A stretch of DNA of 10,118 nucleotides from Campylobacterota bacterium (GTDB lineage: Bacteria > Campylobacterota > Campylobacteria > Campylobacterales > Sulfurimonadaceae), in NCBI GenBank assembly GCA_013153755.1, contig JAADDU010000100.1, positions 1 through 10,118 on the forward strand, read 5' to 3'. The notes beneath the pieces are model-generated. The model saw only the letters and a program-made list of their open reading frames with translations, did not search any database and had not been told where the DNA came from. Of the stretch, positions 1,722 through 9,489 are shown in pieces (the stretch's first letter is position 1; each line of letters begins with the position of its first letter). The position numbers were made by a program, and so were the translations under genes.

Positions 1722-2669
1722 TTCCCCCTTAACCTCATCAAAAAGCTCCTGCTTTTTCACTGCATCTAAAGGTATCATGTAGTGTTTTTGTTTGGTTATA
1801 TCCCCAACACTTTTCCACCTTTTGGCACTTGCAAAAAGAGAGTCTGCAAAAAATGTCATAGTAGCAGTTCCTACCAAAGATGCAAGATGGTATGTTCCTG
1901 TTGAAGTAGATACAAAAAGTTTAAAATTGCTTATGAGTTTTGCAAACTCCACCAAACCATCTTTTGATACATAAAAAACAACTCCCCTACCCTCTAGGCG
2001 TTTTTGCATCTCATCACAAAGGTTTTGCTCATCAGGTCCAAATGTCAAAACAACATCATATTTATTCTCTAAAAGCACTGCATCTATGAGTTTTTCATAC
2101 TCATCAAGACTCCAGTTTGCATCAGATGAACCACCAAAACCAACATGAAACGCTATAACATCCCTCTTTATGCCGTACTCTTTTTTAAACTCATCATACA
2201 CACTCTTTGCATCTACAAACTCCAAAAGAGGTTTTTTATACTCTGTGTCCATATCTTTAAAAAGGCTCTTACAAAGCTCTATGTTGTACTCAAACTCAGC
2301 CATTTTTACCTGACTTCTTCTTTGTTTTACCCTTTTGTTGTAAAAGATTTGGGCTATTTTGGTAGCGGGAGCTATACGGATGGGGATAGATGCCAAAAAC
2401 TGAGCAAATGCCACGCGAGTATTTGAAAACATGGTTATAGATGCATCTACTCTCAAAGCTCTAAGTTCACTAGCCAAAGAGAGCAAAGACTGCCCATTAT
2501 CTACAACTACTGCATCTATAAAATCACATGCTCTTGCAAGTGCAACATTTAGTGGAGCTACACAAACAACTATCTCATTTTTTGGGTTATGTTTTTTTAG
2601 CAGATATATAGCCGGAAGTGTTGTTATAAAATCTCCAAGCTTATCTGTACGAACTATAAGTATCTTCAT
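1710..2669 (-). CDS. Glycosyltransferase family 9 (ADP-heptose:LPS heptosyltransferase-like)
   Basis: This 319-residue GT-B enzyme begins MKILIVRTDKLGDF, the GT9 N-terminal glycine loop with the conserved catalytic D13. The C-terminal domain has FHVGFGGSSDANW (174-186), which replaces the usual GA/S-x-x-x-K-x-W donor loop. STSTGTYHLAS (254-264) matches the S/T-GPxHLA motif that binds the ADP part of the donor. In this family the reaction transfers L-glycero-D-manno-heptose to the inner core at the cytoplasmic face. The usual proline in GPxHLA is T259 here and the donor loop is divergent, so it may be a third, non-WaaC/WaaF heptosyltransferase or use another sugar. It is the only gene on the minus strand and carries six copies of the TAGATGCA core in 960 bases. 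No Shine-Dalgarno sequence is obvious before ATG 2669. Confidence 0.85.
   Translation of the reverse strand: MKILIVRTDKLGDFITTLPAIYLLKKHNPKNEIVVCVAPLNVALARACDFIDAVVVDNGQSLLSLASELRALRVDASITMFSNTRVAFAQFLASIPIRIAPATKIAQIFYNKRVKQRRSQVKMAEFEYNIELCKSLFKDMDTEYKKPLLEFVDAKSVYDEFKKEYGIKRDVIAFHVGFGGSSDANWSLDEYEKLIDAVLLENKYDVVLTFGPDEQNLCDEMQKRLEGRGVVFYVSKDGLVEFAKLISNFKLFVSTSTGTYHLASLVGTATMTFFADSLFASAKRWKSVGDITKQKHYMIPLDAVKKQELFDEVKGELSF
1759..1768 (-). repeat. TAGATGCAGT repeat copy 1
   Basis: An exact copy in the 3' part of the GT9 gene, read as Leu-Asp-Ala-Val in the gene's frame. Confidence 0.7.
2077..2086 (-). repeat. TAGATGCAGT repeat copy 2
   Basis: An exact copy in the GT9 gene, encoding Ile-Asp-Ala-Val. 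Confidence 0.7.
2438..2449. repeat. Perfect 12-bp palindrome made of two overlapping repeat cores
   Basis: TAGATGCATCTA reads the same on both strands, so the core TAGATGCA occurs in both orientations at one site inside the GT9 gene. Confidence 0.6.
2509..2518 (-). repeat. TAGATGCAGT repeat copy 3
   Basis: An exact copy in the 5' third of the GT9 gene, encoding Ile-Asp-Ala-Val. Confidence 0.7.
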
Positions 2670-2675
2670 CTGGGT

Positions 2676-2681
2676 ATTTTA
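2676..2681 (-). promoter_or_regulatory. Possible -10 element of the GT9 gene
   Basis: TAAAAT (minus strand) lies 6 bases before the ATG of the GT9 gene. It would place transcription start at or next to the start codon, giving a leaderless mRNA. The base composition is AT-rich and there is no clear -35, so this is a weak call. Confidence 0.3.
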
Positions 2682-2693
2682 ACCTAAAAACGA

Positions 2694-2699
2694 TATAAT
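2694..2699 (+). promoter_or_regulatory. -10 promoter element of the glycosidase-like gene
   Basis: A perfect TATAAT lies 7 bases upstream of ATG 2707, and no Shine-Dalgarno sequence separates them (the spacer is C-rich). Transcription would start at about the A of the ATG. Sigma-70 promoters in this phylum often lack a -35 box, so the -10 alone is meaningful. If the true start is the in-frame ATG at 2782, the same promoter would give a 5' leader of about 75 bases. Confidence 0.5.
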
Positions 2700-2706
2700 C
2701 CCCCTT

Positions 2707-3987
2707 ATGAAAGAACCATTTAACTGGGATGAGTATTCCGACCAACCAGCACTACTAAAAGACAGAGCATTTAAAAAGCAGATGCGTAAAAAAGAGTCTA
2801 GCTCTTTGTTTAAAACCATCCTCACCTCACTTGTTGTATTACCATTTTCACTTATGATGATGCCGTTTGTAAAAAGAAAAGAGGTAAAAAGTAGTGAGTT
2901 TTTCTCTATAGGTGTAGATTTTGAGCGAGAAAGTAAACTTACACTTGAACTTTTAGATGAGTTAGATGCAGATAATATTTTAGTTCGTATAAAACTCTGG
3001 GAGATGGAAAAACTAGATGCACTAAAAGAGTTTTTAACTAAAACAAAACACAGAAAAATCACACTTAAAATACTCCAAGACAGAGAGCATATAGAGGATT
3101 TAAACCTACTTGAAGATGATTTGAGAACTATCTTTAAAAAGTTAGATGCAGTGGTTAATATATTTGAGATAGGCTCAACCATAAACAGAGCAAAATGGGG
3201 CTTTTTTAGTGTTGATGAATATAGTAGATTTTATAAAACGGCTTATGACTTAAAACAAAAAGAGTTTAAACACATAAAGCTCCTAGGTAGTGGAGTTATA
3301 GACTTTGAGTATCACTTTACTGCCCATACACTATTTAACTTTTACAAATACCATTATGACGGTGTGGCATCTTTACTTTATGTAGATAGAAGAGGTGCTC
3401 CTGAAAATACTCAGATGGGGTTTACTCTATCAGATAAAATCGCCCTGCTTAGCACTATGGTATGGCTAAGCCCAAAAACATCAAATAAACTCTATATCAC
3501 AGAAACAAACTGGCCCATAAGTGGTACTGCTCCCTATGCACCGACAAGTGAATATGAGTGTGTAGATGAAAACTCCTATGCGAACTTTATGTTACGCTAC
3601 TATCTTTTAGCTTTTGCTTCTCAACAAGTAGATGCACTCTCTTGGCATCAACTCATAGCAAGAGGTTATGGGCTTGTTGATAACATAGGTGGTATAAGAA
3701 AAAGGGATGCTTTTTATACATTTAAAACTATGTTAAAACACCTTAAAAATGCACAGTTTTTAAGACTAGATATAAAAAGAGGCTACTATATACTACAATG
3801 CTTAGTAGATGAGAGATTACTTCAAATTCATTGGTCAACAAAAGAACAAAATCTAAAAAATGAAGATAGTTTTGAGGTGTATTTGAGAGATGGAGAGAAG
3901 ATAGAAAGTGAAGATATAACCATATCAGAGTCACCAACTTACATATATATAACAAAAGCAGTATCACAAAAAGTAAACTGCATCTAA
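2707..3987 (+). CDS. Membrane-anchored glycosidase-like TIM-barrel protein (clan GH-A type)
   Basis: This 426-residue protein has a basic patch (KKQMRKK, 23-29), then one hydrophobic segment (about 36-55), then a large soluble part, consistent with a type II inner-membrane anchor. The soluble part reads like a clan GH-A barrel. The strand NIFEIGSTIN has E154 in the place of the acid/base residue. KLYITETNWP has E266 in the position of the nucleophile (the classic T-E-x-x-W end of strand 7). SWHQLIARGYGL (312-323) fits strand 8. A beta-rich tail (about 350-426) resembles the C-terminal sandwich of GH39/GH5-like enzymes. It is flanked by a GT9 gene and waaF, so a role in trimming or remodelling LPS or another surface glycan is plausible. 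No family assignment is certain, and it could be a catalytically inactive scaffold. The start may instead be ATG 2782, which would give a cleaner signal-anchor. The stop codon lies inside a TAGATGCAGT-family repeat. Confidence 0.55.
   Translation: MKEPFNWDEYSDQPALLKDRAFKKQMRKKESSSLFKTILTSLVVLPFSLMMMPFVKRKEVKSSEFFSIGVDFERESKLTLELLDELDADNILVRIKLWEMEKLDALKEFLTKTKHRKITLKILQDREHIEDLNLLEDDLRTIFKKLDAVVNIFEIGSTINRAKWGFFSVDEYSRFYKTAYDLKQKEFKHIKLLGSGVIDFEYHFTAHTLFNFYKYHYDGVASLLYVDRRGAPENTQMGFTLSDKIALLSTMVWLSPKTSNKLYITETNWPISGTAPYAPTSEYECVDENSYANFMLRYYLLAFASQQVDALSWHQLIARGYGLVDNIGGIRKRDAFYTFKTMLKHLKNAQFLRLDIKRGYYILQCLVDERLLQIHWSTKEQNLKNEDSFEVYLRDGEKIESEDITISESPTYIYITKAVSQKVNCI
3143..3152 (+). repeat. 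TAGATGCAGT repeat copy 4
   Basis: An exact copy in the glycosidase-like gene, encoding Leu-Asp-Ala-Val. Core-only copies at 2963, 3014 and 3629 lie in the same gene. Confidence 0.7.
3977..3986 (-). repeat. TAGATGCAGT repeat copy 5, spanning a stop codon
   Basis: An exact copy in which the last two codons and the first two bases of TAA of the glycosidase-like gene form the motif. It lies in a different frame and orientation from the Asp-Ala-coding copies and 6 bases before the long hairpin. Confidence 0.7.
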
Positions 3988-3992
3988 TCCCA

Positions 3993-4037
3993 ACTTTCTT
4001 TCTAGTTCTCATACTGAGTATGGGAACTAGAGAAAGT
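3993..4037. promoter_or_regulatory. Long hairpin/palindrome between the glycosidase-like gene and waaF
   Basis: Arms 3993-4015 and 4017-4037 pair over about 20 bp. There is a two-base bulge (3999-4000) and one G-T pair (4009/4023), and the centre is at 4016. No T-tract follows on either strand, so it is not a canonical intrinsic terminator. The inner part (AGTTC-x-CATACT and its mirror) is nearly symmetric, as an operator would be. A TATAGG hexamer at 4037-4042 could be a weak -10 for waaF. The choice between operator, RNA-processing hairpin and Rho-assisted terminator is open. Confidence 0.6.
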
Positions 4038-4053
4038 ATAGGATGGAAAATAA

Positions 4054-4057
4054 AGGA
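4054..4057 (+). promoter_or_regulatory. Ribosome binding site of waaF
   Basis: AGGA lies 5 bases before ATG 4063 and fixes that start codon. Confidence 0.6.
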
Positions 4058-4062
4058 TAAAA

Positions 4063-5040
4063 ATGAGAATCTTAGTAATACTTCCAAACTGGCTTGGAGA
4101 TGCCGTCATGACAACCCCTGCCATCGAGTTACTTGCATCTACATACAAAGATGTAAAATTTACATTTGTCGGTAGTTTTGCAAGTATAGAAGCACTAAAG
4201 TACCATCCTTTATGTGAAAAAGCAGTTATAGATGAGACTAAAAAAGCAAAAAATAGATTTCTCGCGACTTTTCAGCTTGCAAAAGAGTTAGGAACTTTTA
4301 ATCTAGCCATAACTTTTAGAAACCAAATCCACTCATCTTTACTACTAAGATTTACAGATACAGTTGTCTGCATAGCTAGAAAATCGTGGCACTCTATGTT
4401 TTTACTATCTCATACACCAACCATACCCACTTCCCAACACCTAGTAAAACAATACGCCCAACTAGCCATGGTAGATGCAGATAGCTATGATGAAAATATA
4501 CCAAAACTAAGACTATACATAAAACCAAAAGAGTTTGACAAACCGATGCTTGGCATAAATGCTGGTGCAACTTATGGAAGTGCAAAAAGATGGTATCCTG
4601 AGAGATTTGCAGAGGTTGCATCAAGTTTTAGAGACAAGTTTAATATCATAATCTTTGGTGGACCAAATGAAGTAGAGATGGCTAAAGATATAGAGCAAAA
4701 TTTAGATGCACTGGGTGTAAAAAACTACACAAACTTAGCAGGAAAAACAACTATAGAAGAACTTTGCGCAAATATAGGTGGATGCTCACTATTTATTACA
4801 AATGACAGTGGTCCTATGCATATATCAGCAGCTTACCAAGTACCAACAGTAGCGATTTTTGGACCTACAAAATACAAAGAAACTTCACAATGGGCAAATG
4901 AAAAAAGCACCATAGTAAGACACGAGATGGAGTGTAGCCCATGTATGAAAAGGGAATGTCCTCTTAAACATCATGAATGTATGACAAGTATCACTGCATC
5001 TGAGGTTATAGATGCAGTCAAAGAGTTACTTAAATATTAA
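4063..5040 (+). CDS. waaF: ADP-heptose:LPS heptosyltransferase II
   Basis: This 325-residue GT9 protein transfers the second L-glycero-D-manno-heptose onto heptose I of the LPS inner core, using ADP-heptose, at the cytoplasmic face of the inner membrane. The N-terminus ILPNWLGDAVM carries the catalytic D13. NAGATYGSAKRWYPERFA (166-183) is the donor-binding loop with the family's KRW. NDSGPMHIS (247-255) and VAIFGPT (263-269) are the ADP-binding strands. The tail has the cysteine-rich stretch CSPC-x4-CP-x4-H-x-CM (C291, C294, C299, C306), which is typical of WaaF rather than WaaC. The length fits the family. It follows the hairpin at 3993-4037 and ends in two overlapping hairpins. Four exact TAGATGCA cores lie inside. 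Confidence 0.93.
   Translation: MRILVILPNWLGDAVMTTPAIELLASTYKDVKFTFVGSFASIEALKYHPLCEKAVIDETKKAKNRFLATFQLAKELGTFNLAITFRNQIHSSLLLRFTDTVVCIARKSWHSMFLLSHTPTIPTSQHLVKQYAQLAMVDADSYDENIPKLRLYIKPKEFDKPMLGINAGATYGSAKRWYPERFAEVASSFRDKFNIIIFGGPNEVEMAKDIEQNLDALGVKNYTNLAGKTTIEELCANIGGCSLFITNDSGPMHISAAYQVPTVAIFGPTKYKETSQWANEKSTIVRHEMECSPCMKRECPLKHHECMTSITASEVIDAVKELLKY
4993..5018. repeat. Perfect inverted pair of the TAGATGCAGT repeat
   Basis: ACTGCATCT (4993-5001) and AGATGCAGT (5010-5018) are exact reverse complements across an 8-base loop. They sit 22 bases before the waaF stop codon. The right arm is a full 10-mer copy (5009-5018). The left arm is a 9-of-10 copy. Pairs of uptake sequences near gene ends have this arrangement in Neisseria and Haemophilus. 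Confidence 0.75.
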
Positions 5041-5050
5041 AGCAACTCTT
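5021..5050 (+). terminator. Terminator-like hairpin at the end of waaF
   Basis: AAGAGTT (5021-5027) pairs with AACTCTT (5044-5050). Inside it are one mismatch and a further CTT/AAG pairing (5029-5031 with 5040-5042). The left arm lies in the last codons of waaF. The following stretch is AAAATTTTATTAT, a short imperfect T-run, so termination may be weak. Confidence 0.4.
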
Positions 5051-5131
5051 AAAATTTTATTATGCTCTTCTTGATAGATATTTATCTTCCACTCTATTGA
5101 CATACTAATATAGTTTTGAGAAATTATATCT

Positions 5132-5137
5132 TATAAT
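5132..5137 (+). promoter_or_regulatory. -10 element of the glnD-glmS transcript
   Basis: A perfect TATAAT in the 123-base gap after waaF would start transcription near 5144, about 20 bases before the glnD start. No well-spaced -35 is seen: a TTGACA at 5097-5102 is 29 bases away, which is too far. T-rich sequence upstream is usual in this phylum. Confidence 0.45.
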
Positions 5138-5152
5138 GACAAAAAGAGAATT

Positions 5153-5155
5153 AGG
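5153..5155 (+). promoter_or_regulatory. Ribosome binding site supporting the TTG start of glnD
   Basis: AGG lies 8 bases before TTG 5164. An in-frame TAG at 5152-5154 excludes any start further upstream. The first in-frame ATG is at about codon 62, inside the conserved region before the nucleotidyltransferase motif, so TTG is the best start. Confidence 0.5.
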
Positions 5156-5163
5156 CATATAAT

Positions 5164-7671
5164 TTGGATTTAAAACTACAGATAGAAGATATCATAGAAA
5201 AAAATGGCTCAGATTTTGAGCTTAGTAAGCTTTTTAAAGCCTATATAAATGAGTATAAGAGCTCACTTCCTGAGCTTTTTGAGAGTTCTCAAGGTAAAGA
5301 CTTCTTAGTAAAACATACAAAAAAACTAGACTCTATAATATCTTTAATGTATAACACCACTCTTAGACGCATCTTTGGAAACTACTTACCTATGAAAAGT
5401 TCTATCCCTGTTGCTGTAGTCGCACTTGGTAGTTATGGACGGGAGCAACTTTGTGTGCATAGTGATATAGATATACTTATAGTATATGAAAATATTGATG
5501 GCTATAACACCCACCTAATCATGGAAAAACTTTTCTATCTAGCACTAGATTCTGGGTTAAAGCTCGGACATAGAGTTCACACTACAGATGACTTATTTAA
5601 AGCATCAAATGAAGATGTAACCATAAAAACATCCTTAATGGAATCTCGCTTGATTATAGGTTCCCCTTTTACATGGCACGAAACACAAAGACAACTTACA
5701 AAGATAAGACTTTATAACCAAAAAGAGTTTATACTCGCAAAAATCGAAGAAGCTCAAATAAGACGCAAAAAGTACCCAACATCTATGCAGCCAAATATAA
5801 AAGAGAGTGTGGGAGGGCTTCGTGATTCTCAATTACTTTACTGGATAGCAAATACAATATATGGCATTAAAAGTTTAAAAGATTTAAGTCAAAAAGTTTT
5901 TTCAGATGATGAGTATAGAGAGTATCGTATAGCCTTAGAGCTTTTATTTCGTGTTAGAAGTGCACTGCATCTAATCACAAATAAGCAAGAAGACAGGCTC
6001 ATACTAGAGCATATACCTCAAGTTTCTAAAATGTTAGGTTTTAAAAATGAACAAAAACTAGTTACAAAAGTTCTTCAAGCATTATGGCGTATAAATAACT
6101 TCACTCAGATTTTTGTAAAAAAGATGCTTAGACCATATATTAGAGATACAAAATTTATAAAAAACTTTAAACATAACCGTATAACTCATGGTATTTACTT
6201 AGTAGATGATAGACTTTATGCCTCTTATAACCTAAAAGTACAACCCATAAATAACATCTTAAAGCTTTTAATTTCACTTGAAGATAAGAACTATCATTTT
6301 GATGCTGGTTTTTTAAACTTACTCACATACTGTGATATATCTCCACAATTTAAAAAGAAAACTTACACACTTTTTAAAGAGTTCTTTAAAAGAGAGCATA
6401 TATACTGTTTTTTAAAACTCTTTTATGATGCTGGGATACTACATAAACTATTTTTTAATTTCAAAAAAGTACTGCATCTACCTCAGTTTGATGGTTATCA
6501 TCACTATCCTGTAGATATTCACTCCATTAAATCTATACAAGCACTTGAAAATATCAAAGAAAATTTTATAAAAGAATTATATGATGAATTAAGTGCAGAT
6601 GAAAAGTTATTGCTAAAAGTAGTAGTTTTATTTCACGATACAGGTAAAGGTCGTAAACAAGATCATAGTGAGGTTGGAGCAAAACTTATAGTACCTTTTG
6701 CAAATAGACTTGGACTAAATGAAAAACTTATACAAAGAGCAGTTATACTCATAAAACATCATGTACTTATGAGTAATGTAGCCTTTAAAGAAAACATCCA
6801 CAATGAAAAAACTCTCTATAAATTTATGTCAAATATAAAAGATACAAAAAATCTAAAGCTTTTATATATCTTAACTTATGCAGATATAAATGGAGTTGGG
6901 GGGAACACTTATAACTCTTTTAACTCTAAACTTTTAAATGATTTATATAAAAGTGCCTTAGAAGTCTCACAAAATAGCGATAGAATCACAGATGCTTCTA
7001 AAAGAATCACTATAGAAAAGAGAGTTAAAAACCATAATGAGTTTAAAAACCTACCAAAATTACTTCAAACTAAACTACTTAGAGTTGAATCAAACCTATT
7101 TTTCTTTAAACACACACCTCTTGACATCATAAAAATTGCAAAAAAAGCAAAAGAGATGAAAGAATATGATTTTCATATAGATGCTATAAACTCTCTAAGT
7201 ATAGAGATATATAGAAAAGTACCACTAAACATAGGCTACCTTTTAGCAACACTTAGCCATTTAGATGTCGCGTCTATGGAGATTTTTACACTTTTTGATG
7301 GTATAAAATACTTCAAAATTGAGTTTATAAAAAATGTTAATGGAAATGAACTCCTAGAGGTTGAAGAGATTGTTAAAAATGCTTTTGATATGGATAGATT
7401 AGTTCCTCTAAAAAAAGTTGATTTAAGTAACAAAGAGATAAGTATAGATTGTGAGCATTCACTAACTTATGCTCAGATAACTATAAATACTAAAAACCAA
7501 CTAGGACTCTTAGCATACATAATGGACTGCTTTGAAAACCTAGGTATAAACATAGTAACAGCTAAGATTTACTCAACTAAGCACAAAGTAAGAGATAGCT
7601 TCTTAATGGAAAAACAAAACAATATATGCCATAATAGTGACAAAATTTATAAATTATTAACTCAAGGATAA
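5164..7671 (+). CDS. glnD: [Protein-PII] uridylyltransferase/uridylyl-removing enzyme
   Basis: This 835-residue protein is close to the family length. GlnD senses glutamine in the cytoplasm. It uridylylates the PII protein when glutamine is low and removes UMP when it is high. Domains in order are as follows. The nucleotidyltransferase domain has GSYGREQLCVHSDIDIL (89-105), with the metal aspartates D101 and D103. A GlnD-type helical region contains the ESVGGLRD motif (214-221). The HD hydrolase domain has HHYPVDIH (446-453) and FHDTGKG (490-496), with the HD pair H491-D492, then H501 and KHH (531-533). Two C-terminal ACT domains follow, one divergent (about 679-720) and one clear (about 769-816, NQLGLLAYIMDCFENLGI core). 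The start is TTG, which usually lowers translation. It has its own promoter and ends 3 bases before glmS. It holds two antisense 10-mer repeats (5964, 6471). Confidence 0.93.
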   Translation: MDLKLQIEDIIEKNGSDFELSKLFKAYINEYKSSLPELFESSQGKDFLVKHTKKLDSIISLMYNTTLRRIFGNYLPMKSSIPVAVVALGSYGREQLCVHSDIDILIVYENIDGYNTHLIMEKLFYLALDSGLKLGHRVHTTDDLFKASNEDVTIKTSLMESRLIIGSPFTWHETQRQLTKIRLYNQKEFILAKIEEAQIRRKKYPTSMQPNIKESVGGLRDSQLLYWIANTIYGIKSLKDLSQKVFSDDEYREYRIALELLFRVRSALHLITNKQEDRLILEHIPQVSKMLGFKNEQKLVTKVLQALWRINNFTQIFVKKMLRPYIRDTKFIKNFKHNRITHGIYLVDDRLYASYNLKVQPINNILKLLISLEDKNYHFDAGFLNLLTYCDISPQFKKKTYTLFKEFFKREHIYCFLKLFYDAGILHKLFFNFKKVLHLPQFDGYHHYPVDIHSIKSIQALENIKENFIKELYDELSADEKLLLKVVVLFHDTGKGRKQDHSEVGAKLIVPFANRLGLNEKLIQRAVILIKHHVLMSNVAFKENIHNEKTLYKFMSNIKDTKNLKLLYILTYADINGVGGNTYNSFNSKLLNDLYKSALEVSQNSDRITDASKRITIEKRVKNHNEFKNLPKLLQTKLLRVESNLFFFKHTPLDIIKIAKKAKEMKEYDFHIDAINSLSIEIYRKVPLNIGYLLATLSHLDVASMEIFTLFDGIKYFKIEFIKNVNGNELLEVEEIVKNAFDMDRLVPLKKVDLSNKEISIDCEHSLTYAQITINTKNQLGLLAYIMDCFENLGINIVTAKIYSTKHKVRDSFLMEKQNNICHNSDKIYKLLTQG
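5964..5973 (-). repeat. TAGATGCAGT repeat copy 6, antisense in glnD
   Basis: An exact copy on the strand opposite to glnD. The sense strand encodes Ala-Leu-His-Leu, so the sequence is not explained by a favoured Asp-Ala codon pair. Confidence 0.7.
6471..6480 (-). repeat. TAGATGCAGT repeat copy 7, antisense in glnD
   Basis: An exact copy on the strand opposite to glnD, where the sense strand encodes Val-Leu-His-Leu. Confidence 0.7.
7664..7668 (+). promoter_or_regulatory. Ribosome binding site of glmS inside the end of glnD
   Basis: AAGGA lies 6 bases before ATG 7675 and overlaps the last codons of glnD, which indicates translational coupling. Confidence 0.6.
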
Positions 7672-7674
7672 AAA

Positions 7675-9489
7675 ATGTGTGGCATAGTTGGATATTTGGG
7701 CGAAAAAAACACTAAAGAGATTTTACTAGATGGACTCAAAGAGTTGGAGTATAGAGGTTACGATTCAGCAGGGATTGCCGTTTTACAAAAAGGTCACTTT
7801 AGTAACTATAAAGCTATCGGTAAACTTGTAAATCTTGAAGAAAAAACGAAAGATTTCACGACTGAAGGTTTTGCAATAGGTATAGGTCATACTCGTTGGG
7901 CTACACATGGTAAACCAACAGAACTAAATGCCCATCCACACTTAGGGGAATGTTCTTATGTTGTTCACAATGGTATCATAGAAAACTACATGGAACTCAA
8001 AAAAAGTTTACAAAAAGATGGTGTTGTTTTTTTAAGTCAAACAGATACAGAAGTAATCGTACATCAATTTGAAAAAAACTTAAGTACATCAACTGATGCT
8101 TTTGAAGCATTTAAACAAACTATCAAAGAACTAGATGGTGCTTATGCTATCTTACTTGTAACAAAGTCTATGCCAGATACCATCTTTTTTGCAAAAAATG
8201 GCTCTCCTATGCTTATGGGTATAAACTATGAGGGTGAAAAGTTTTTTGCATCATCAGACACACCACTTATAGGTCATGCAAGTGATGTAAACTACTTTGA
8301 TGATGGAGATTTTGGATATGTTAGTGCTAAAGAGATAGCTATCTTTGGAAATGATGGTATTAAAAAAGAAGCTAAATTTTCAAAACTATCTCAAAACAAA
8401 CTCTCAGCTCAAAAAGATGGTTATAGATTTTTCATGGAAAAAGAGATTTATGAACAAAGTAATGTAATAGCAGACACTCTTTTAGGCAGACTTGCAGACG
8501 ATGAAGTTATTTTTGATGAGTTAGATGCAGTGCTTTTTGATGGTATAAATGAGATAAAGCTTTGTGCTTGTGGTACATCTTATCACTCAGCACTTAGTGC
8601 ATCTTATCTATTTGAAAGATACGCTAAAGTAAAAACTTCTGTAGAGATTGCAAGTGAGTTTAGATATAGAGAACCCATAATGACAAAAGATACCCTTTTT
8701 GTTGTTATATCTCAAAGTGGTGAAACTGCTGATACACTAGAAACATTAAAAATGGCAAAAGAAGCTGGTCTTAAAACACTTGTTATTTGTAATGTTGACA
8801 ACTCATCTATGGTTAGAATCGCAGACGCAACCATACTTGCTCGTGCTGGGATTGAAAAAGGTGTAGCATCTACAAAAGCTTTTGCTACACAAGTTACTAT
8901 ATTTTGGATGTTAAGTCTTTATGTAGCAAAACTTAAAAAATCACTACCAAATGATGAGATAGCAAAACAGATAGAACTCATAAGAGAGATTCCATTGTCT
9001 GTAAAAGTTACAGACTCTATGCATGAAAGATTAAAAAGATTATCTAAACGATATCTTCATGGGCATGGATTTTTCTTCATAGGTAGGGACATATTTTTCC
9101 CTCTAGCACTAGAGGGTGCATTAAAATTAAAAGAGATAAGTTATCTTCATGCAGAAGGTTATCCTAGTGGAGAGATGAAACATGGTCCTATCGCTTTAGC
9201 AGATCCAGAACTATTTACAATCGCCCTACTTCCAGAACACCTACACTATGAAAAATCAAAAAGTAATGTAGAAGAACTTAGTGCAAGGGATTCAACCATA
9301 TGTGCTATAAGTTCACTAGAATTTGATAAAGCAGATGACTTTATCCCTATAAATCGATGCAAGCACTATATGTTAGAATTTTTTGAAATGATGGTTGTTG
9401 TTCAACTACTCTCACTAGAAATTTCTGTCCGTTTAGGTAATGATGTAGATATGCCTAGAAACCTTGCAAAAAGTGTTACTGTAGAATAA
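7675..9489 (+). CDS. glmS: Glutamine--fructose-6-phosphate aminotransferase (isomerizing)
   Basis: This 604-residue enzyme makes glucosamine-6-phosphate from fructose-6-phosphate and glutamine, the first step to UDP-GlcNAc for peptidoglycan and lipid A. The N-terminal class II glutaminase domain starts MCGIVGYLG with the nucleophile C2. It has YRGYDSAGI (26-34), HTRWATHG (72-79, R74), HNG (98-100) and QTDTE (122-126, D124). Two SIS sugar-isomerase domains follow. SIS1 has CGTSYHS (299-305) and SQSGET (346-351). SIS2 has ALKLKEISY (482-490, catalytic Glu487) and GEMKHGP (499-505, His503). The C-terminal DMPRNLAKSVTVE carries the conserved K599 that forms the sugar Schiff base. No residues are missing. 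It follows glnD by 3 bases, probably in one transcript. No glmS ribozyme space exists upstream. Confidence 0.97.
   Translation: MCGIVGYLGEKNTKEILLDGLKELEYRGYDSAGIAVLQKGHFSNYKAIGKLVNLEEKTKDFTTEGFAIGIGHTRWATHGKPTELNAHPHLGECSYVVHNGIIENYMELKKSLQKDGVVFLSQTDTEVIVHQFEKNLSTSTDAFEAFKQTIKELDGAYAILLVTKSMPDTIFFAKNGSPMLMGINYEGEKFFASSDTPLIGHASDVNYFDDGDFGYVSAKEIAIFGNDGIKKEAKFSKLSQNKLSAQKDGYRFFMEKEIYEQSNVIADTLLGRLADDEVIFDELDAVLFDGINEIKLCACGTSYHSALSASYLFERYAKVKTSVEIASEFRYREPIMTKDTLFVVISQSGETADTLETLKMAKEAGLKTLVICNVDNSSMVRIADATILARAGIEKGVASTKAFATQVTIFWMLSLYVAKLKKSLPNDEIAKQIELIREIPLSVKVTDSMHERLKRLSKRYLHGHGFFFIGRDIFFPLALEGALKLKEISYLHAEGYPSGEMKHGPIALADPELFTIALLPEHLHYEKSKSNVEELSARDSTICAISSLEFDKADDFIPINRCKHYMLEFFEMMVVVQLLSLEISVRLGNDVDMPRNLAKSVTVE
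8522..8531 (+). repeat. TAGATGCAGT repeat copy 8, in glmS
   Basis: An exact copy in the linker before SIS1 of glmS, encoding Leu-Asp-Ala-Val. It is the only copy in glmS and the last in the window. The ninth exact copy is the right arm of the inverted pair at 5009-5018. Confidence 0.7.

Follow-up and report, generated by a model that had tools for sequence, protein, structure and literature searches.

Genes and Word Copies in the Window

The stretch of DNA analysed here (the window: 10,118 nucleotides, contig JAADDU010000100.1, from a Campylobacterota bacterium of the Sulfurimonadaceae) carries repeated copies of a short word, the 10-mer TAGATGCAGT, and of its octamer core, TAGATGCA, within a group of genes that includes glnD and glmS. 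TAGATGCAGT quite probably represents one of the dialects of a DNA-uptake-sequence-like system that the Sulfurimonadaceae (Campylobacterota) possess. The genes and open reading frames (ORFs) of the window, as assigned by a Pfam search, are as follows.

Part 1-1758: polysaccharide deacetylase-like and family-2 glycosyltransferase genes
1710-2669: family-9 (heptosyltransferase-like) ORF
2707-3987: ORF of 426 residues, no Pfam match
4063-5040: family-9 (heptosyltransferase-like) ORF
5164-7671: glnD
7675-9489: glmS
Elsewhere in the window: a partial ORF, no Pfam match

The copies of the word are distributed among these genes as listed below.

1759-1768, minus strand: TAGATGCAGT, sense in ORF 1710-2669, Leu-Asp-Ala-Val
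2077-2086, minus strand: TAGATGCAGT, sense in ORF 1710-2669, Ile-Asp-Ala-Val
2208-2215, minus strand: TAGATGCA core only, sense in ORF 1710-2669
2438-2445, plus strand: TAGATGCA core and left half of the palindrome TAGATGCATCTA, antisense to ORF 1710-2669
2442-2449, minus strand: TAGATGCA core and right half of that palindrome, sense in ORF 1710-2669
2509-2518, minus strand: TAGATGCAGT, sense in ORF 1710-2669, Ile-Asp-Ala-Val
2963-2970, plus strand: TAGATGCA core only, sense in ORF 2707-3987
3014-3021, plus strand: TAGATGCA core only, sense in ORF 2707-3987
3143-3152, plus strand: TAGATGCAGT, sense in ORF 2707-3987, Leu-Asp-Ala-Val
3629-3636, plus strand: TAGATGCA core only, sense in ORF 2707-3987
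3977-3986, minus strand: TAGATGCAGT, antisense, across the stop codon of ORF 2707-3987
4134-4141, minus strand: TAGATGCA core only, antisense in ORF 4063-5040
4472-4479, plus strand: TAGATGCA core only, sense in ORF 4063-5040
4703-4710, plus strand: TAGATGCA core only, sense in ORF 4063-5040
5009-5018, plus strand: TAGATGCAGT, sense near the end of ORF 4063-5040, Ile-Asp-Ala-Val
5964-5973, minus strand: TAGATGCAGT, antisense in glnD
6471-6480, minus strand: TAGATGCAGT, antisense in glnD
8522-8531, plus strand: TAGATGCAGT, sense in glmS, Leu-Asp-Ala-Val

All nine decamers and all 18 octamers that an earlier note, made from the sequence of the window, had located are present where it placed them, and the layout that it described (both strands, sense in an x-Asp-Ala frame, antisense in glnD, over a stop codon) is also found. 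Thirteen of the 18 octamers lie sense in the x-Asp-Ala frame and five lie antisense to an ORF, one over the stop codon; for the decamer the division is six sense to three antisense, with three copies on the plus strand and six on the minus strand in 10.1 kb. An exact search of the whole window found no copy in 1-1758 or beyond 8531, and the first of these parts, with its deacetylase and glycosyltransferase genes, may be recently acquired DNA.

The 426-residue protein adjoins a heptosyltransferase-like gene, and a 70% orthologue stands beside the same neighbour in the relative G002 (locus L084).

Abundance Relative to Chance and Codon Usage

In 200 dinucleotide shuffles of the window, TAGATGCAGT occurred 0.04 times on average (largest count 1, against the nine seen) and TAGATGCA 0.52 times (largest 4, against 18); the earlier note had estimated 0.02 and 0.4 copies. 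Under a second-order Markov model of the window, the top-scoring 8-, 9- and 10-mers all belong to the word, with 18 copies against 1.34 expected (score 30), 11 against 0.16 (score 36) and nine against 0.06 (score 37), whereas the best scores reached by chance in 20 simulated sequences of 22.5 kb were 14, 14 and 23, respectively.

A preference for the Asp-Ala codon pair GAT-GCA might in principle produce such a word, given the frame shared by the sense octamers and the presence of this pair at 14 of the 24 Asp-Ala positions in the window. As a full explanation, this codon or peptide effect is refuted and retains next to no probability. Synonymous shuffles, in which the proteins and the codon usage were fixed and the codon pairs left free, gave a mean of 1.62 decamers (largest 6) and 4.78 octamers (largest 12), and none of the 3,000 reached either 9 or 18; the antisense octamers do not fit a codon effect either.

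Comparison with orthologous proteins adds a second line of evidence. Ten of the 13 sense sites can be compared with an orthologue from a close relative (L084 or L002), and the alanine of the window is kept at only two of them, compared with 71 of 85 other alanines (Fisher p ~9e-5), so that at eight of these ten sites the nearest relative compared has no alanine. The aspartate is kept at seven of the ten sites and at 55 of 75 positions elsewhere. Ten of 64 relatives have Asp-Ala at the motif site in glmS. The low retention suggests that the alanine at the sense motif sites of the window was most likely written by the DNA word. Since the synonymous shuffles fail to reproduce the counts and alanine is overwritten at motif sites, codon usage alone is excluded as the cause of the abundance of the word, as the earlier note had held.

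Dialect Words Across the Sulfurimonadaceae

A GlnD search of species genomes returned 71 loci, 60 of them titled Sulfurimonas, with 81% identity in the best full-length match. In a GlnD tree of 68 rows, for which 67 of the 71 loci were used, the window groups with L001, L002 and L006 (Shimodaira-Hasegawa-like approximate likelihood ratio test, SH-aLRT, 98). Whole-genome counts cover 47 of the 71 loci, that is, 46 genomes, of whose sequence the loci make up about 1%; the tallies of ComEC, TAGATGCA and AACACGCA are based on 46 loci.

As an exact 10-mer, TAGATGCAGT does not exceed 62 copies in any of 228 genomes of the family and was rejected as a family-wide signal. Counts per locus show that many relatives have a different strongly over-represented word, and in 35 of the 46 whole genomes one of six other words stands far above its level in the remaining genomes, at 178-1,822 copies. 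The genome-wide signal proposed in the earlier note is thus present in the relatives in the form of other words, and not as TAGATGCAGT itself. Among the 46 genomes, AAACGCAG has 370-1,822 copies in nine, 124 in one and at most 101 in the other 36; CCACATGC has 272-1,564 in 11 and at most 85 in the others; AGATGCTA has 762-954 in four and 67-267 in the others; TACATGTAA, whose sites are often counted on both strands because its core is palindromic, has 325-681 in four, 178 in one and at most 69 in the others; TCACGCAG has 433-549 in five and at most 68 in the others; and AACACGCA has 992 in a single genome and at most 79 in the others. The densest genome, G011, has about one word per 1.3 kb. 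Reversed words, counted as controls, gave 0 to 122 copies per genome. No strong word was seen in 11 of the 46 genomes (G170, G158, G008, G198, G111, G149, G016, G159, G018, G147 and G122), five of which (G149, G158, G016, G159 and G018) have a weak or locus-only word.

The core of the window's word is abundant in the genomes closest to it. TAGATGCA has 897 copies in G002, 571 in G004, 521 in G001 and 499 in G020, compared with 88-249 in the other 42 genomes. AGATGCTA is carried by the same four genomes, namely G020 and the three nearest relatives of the window. This bears on the possibility that the word is a feature local to the window, spread by a local repeat or confined to a mosaic region. 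The rarity of TAGATGCAGT in the 228 relatives would agree with it, but the copies lie in several unrelated genes with little in common beyond the word, and the same core occurs throughout the genomes of the nearest relatives, making a local origin very unlikely.

On the GlnD tree, the words group by clade, and AAACGCAG, TACATGTA and AGATGC each reappear in separate clades; both observations were made by eye, with no statistic attached. At least seven forms can be told apart: TAGATGCAGT in the window, C/T-AGATGC-A/T in its nearest relatives, AAACGCAG, CTCACGCAG, AACACGCA, TTTCCACATGCC and the palindromic TTACATGTAA. An independently evolved uptake-sequence system of the Sulfurimonadaceae, whose forms, at least seven in number, switch from one clade to the next and reappear in separate clades, is a fairly likely reading of this distribution. 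Outside the family, AAACGCAG does not exceed 239 copies (control 113) in 271 out-of-family genomes among 298. De novo counts in 14 out-of-family stretches of 20 kb, from genomes that are mostly A+T-rich with low counts and do not form a fair sample, gave a best score of 18, compared with at most 14-23 in simulation.

The two strands carry the words about equally (~1:1) in the dialect genomes, and within single contigs the forward and reverse counts are 51/50 in G124, 31/27 and 15/13 in G116, and 22/24 and 38/26 in G138. The genome counts of CCACATGC had hinted at a strand skew, which counts in loci and contigs did not bear out. FtsK-orienting polar sequences (KOPS) and Chi sites of RecBCD or AddAB, which orient the chromosome or mark it for recombination, are likewise short, abundant and mostly intragenic. 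They are skewed along replichores, whereas the words described here are balanced genome-wide and within 60-120 kb contigs of G124 and G116, and words of the KOPS or Chi kind would not ordinarily be expected to vary between clades. A signal of the KOPS or Chi type is therefore most improbable.

Several other repeats were noted in the same sequences. In G121, AAACGCAG is lopsided (111 forward, 30 reverse), unlike in the dialect genomes, and is perhaps part of a tandem repeat. G033, a single contig of 2,240,048 bases (L193, L194), has the palindromic TTACATGTAA form, with TACATGTAA present 20 times against 0.39 expected in 40 kb. CGGTGTTAC of L041 was dropped as a dialect since it lies within a longer hairpin repeat; this repeat is dispersed in several copies with paired arms ACCGACT...AGTCGGT and is not of the dialect type. 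L011 and L070 contain the related 10-12-mers TCAGAATGACAA and CAGAATGACGG, with 4-5 copies per locus, and L003 has the G+C-rich word AGCCATCGCGTC seven times in one 12.9-kb locus, alongside the CCACATGC dialect.

Anatomy of the Words and Maintenance of Their Sites

De novo counts in four genomes define the words more closely. Over 299 kb of G002, two 7-mers rank highest, TAGATGC (222 copies, 53.8 expected) and AGATGCA (256 copies, 79.8 expected), giving a word of roughly C/T-AGATGC-A/T. In 160 kb of G138, GGCATGTGG occurs 104 times against 0.7 expected and extends to about TTTCCACATGCCAAG. The word of G124 is C/T-AAACGCAGC, and that of G116 is CTCACGCAG, accompanied by a palindromic form, CTCACGTGAG. 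A center of A, C/T, G, C/T appears by eye to be common to all words, with flanks that are specific to each lineage; as the strand of each word was chosen freely, the shared core is a matter of interpretation. The reading frames of in-gene copies are unequal, which is expected if only tolerated residues are kept.

The only palindromic forms among the dialects are TACATGTA and the CTCACGTGAG form, TAGATGCAGT itself being non-palindromic. These two raise the possibility of a word that a methyltransferase or a repair system maintains in very many copies, with no role in uptake, in the manner of the highly iterated palindrome HIP1 of cyanobacteria. The palindromic TACATGTA dialect and part of the CTCACG dialect would fit such an origin, and orphan methyltransferases have been tied to HIP1 (available portions of PMC4390886). 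Set against this, TAGATGCAGT, AAACGCAG and AACACGCA are not palindromic, and rapid change of the word from clade to clade is the pattern of the DNA uptake sequences (DUS). Absence of the word from stretches with conjugation-type or McrBC genes, described below, is also a DUS pattern, although slow accumulation of any word could yield the same absence. On balance, a HIP1-like origin is unlikely.

Evidence in keeping with an uptake sequence comes from orthologous sites, whose comparison had been proposed as a check in the earlier note. Between species of the same dialect, the motif is intact in the partner at 31/53, 22/47, 54/92, 61/128, 42/63 and 7/13 sites, compared with 20-35% for other words of equal G+C, so that motif words are kept 1.7-3 times more often in all six sets. 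These comparisons are ordered pairs and not independent, and for CCACATGC five of its 11 loci were used.

Word-Free Stretches and Competence Genes

The longest stretches without the word were located in three genomes and ranked against random gaps. In contig 1 of G116, the longest is 12.5 kb and lies at the contig end (equally long random gaps in 5.2% of draws); it contains TrbI-like, TraK-like and BRO-N genes (L098:1-11543; five of ten listed ORFs searched) and borders on a tRNA gene that adjoins a tRNA synthetase gene. In contig 8 of G124, the longest gap, 6.0 kb (1.9% of draws), contains McrBC (two of six listed ORFs searched). Conjugation-type or McrBC genes are thus found in two of the three longest gaps, with ten of the 25 listed ORFs searched, and these two fit the pattern described for DUS and islands in Neisseriaceae (available portions of PMC7371117).

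ComEC is present in 42 of the 46 genomes and prepilins in all 20 of the genomes searched. Twelve of these 20 have two or three short prepilin genes on the contig of comEC, at a distance of ~6.5-10 kb from it, for example at L156:9176-10666 and in similar places in L154-L165; they are candidate competence pilins. In G116, the comEC-linked prepilins stand beside a 615-residue ORF, which we take to be PriA.

Several observations weigh against an uptake sequence, or against some features of one. The third word-free gap, in contig 62 of G138 (9.5 kb, 3.0% of draws), holds ordinary genes, with three of nine listed ORFs searched. ComEC fails to separate genomes with a strong word (32 of 35) from those without one (10 of 11) and is thus a necessary condition and no discriminator; ComEC and prepilins are among the competence and pilus genes for which the earlier note had suggested a search, and they do not discriminate. 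No receptor was found among the four prepilin groups compared, all distinct from the comEC-linked one, and they show no clear link to dialect: distant pairs of the same dialect nominally exceed their expected likeness by a small margin (mean residuals 0.030-0.045 vs 0.004-0.025), but several pairs of different dialects are as alike or more so. Motif words of L007 are kept in 4 of 21 cases in each of the weaker-dialect loci L012 and L055, no more often than other words (a fraction of 0.18). In glnD, 58 of 67 relatives have conserved residues at antisense site 5966, so that no override is seen at this place. The palindromic TACATGTA dialect is unlike the known DUS and the uptake signal sequences (USS). 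G138 does have an intergenic excess, with 20 of 110 copies in the 7% of its sequence that lies outside ORFs, and perfect inverted pairs are present. G002, G124 and G116 lack such an excess (3-6% of copies in about 9-10% of the sequence), and a single close inverted pair was seen in each of G124 and G116, so that an intergenic excess with inverted pairs is seen in one of the four genomes examined. Even spacing of the words was not found, and in G124 and in contig 62 of G138 they are clustered beyond random. Of the DUS features, inverted pairs and a scarcity in mobile or defence-type DNA are therefore only partly in evidence here.

Close inverted pairs of TAGATGCAGT in viral contigs were also considered and were attributed to chance, because each of the five stretches holds only the pair and at most two further octamers.

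Proposed Mechanism and Its Implications

The earlier note had favored an uptake sequence over KOPS or Chi. The genome-wide words of the relatives, the ~1:1 strand ratio, the kept orthologous sites and the absence of the words from two mobile or defence-type stretches side with that preference, to the extent that the points raised above allow. From this pattern of sequences, we infer uptake and a cognate receptor. A receptor on the pilus or in the periplasm would bind the word in outside DNA during natural transformation; uptake would thus favor DNA of the same lineage, which ComEC would carry inward. As this DNA recombined with the genome, the word would build up to a density of about one per kilobase wherever the genes tolerate it, and the whole genome of the window would be as word-dense as the window itself. 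A shift in the specificity of the receptor would then be followed by a shift of the word, yielding lineage dialects.

If this reading is true, a DNA fragment should be taken up more readily once the species' own word has been added to it. An unrelated occurrence with many dialects would imply that self-recognizing transformation arises repeatedly, and it would offer a second natural experiment, beside the Neisseriaceae, in how co-evolution of a receptor and a genome-wide word limits gene flow between species. The words would also mark gene-flow barriers in ecologically important sulfur oxidizers and guide the choice of DNA for transforming Sulfurimonas, and comparison of dialects could reveal receptor candidates.

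Comparison with Known Systems

Two families of proteobacteria, the Neisseriaceae and the Pasteurellaceae, have established uptake sequences. None was found in connection with Campylobacterota or Sulfurimonas in the literature searched, outside which most subscription papers lie, and a text search of PMC12616744 found mention of neither Campylobacter nor Helicobacter.

The DUS dialects of Neisseriaceae are recognized by the minor pilin ComP. The DUS are words of ~10-12 bases with hundreds to thousands of copies and several dialects, largely intragenic and missing from islands (available portions of PMC3630211 and PMC7371117). As far as these portions describe them, they resemble the Sulfurimonadaceae words in abundance, in lineage dialects and in a mostly intragenic location. 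The phylum and the words are different: the core here, read by eye, appears to be A-C/T-G-C/T and not CTG, one of the dialects is palindromic, and the system is known from sequence alone.

The USS of Pasteurellaceae comprise two main types, compared with at least seven forms here. Their A/T tracts one helical turn away were not seen in the alignment columns inspected. The likeness lies in an abundant short word, in that family a word of naturally competent bacteria (available portion of PMC7811141).

HIP1, the palindrome GCGATCGC, is very abundant and tied to a clade (available portions of PMC4390886), as are the words described here, of which the TACATGTA dialect is also palindromic. In contrast, the word of the window and most dialects are non-palindromic and change between clades.

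Within the same phylum, Campylobacter jejuni discriminates DNA in a methylation-dependent manner at RAATTY. This too is self-recognition in transformation, directed at a short methylated site and not at an accumulated word of 8-12 bases. By abundance, distribution on both strands, dialects, maintenance of sites and override of protein sequence, the words of the Sulfurimonadaceae are DUS-like.

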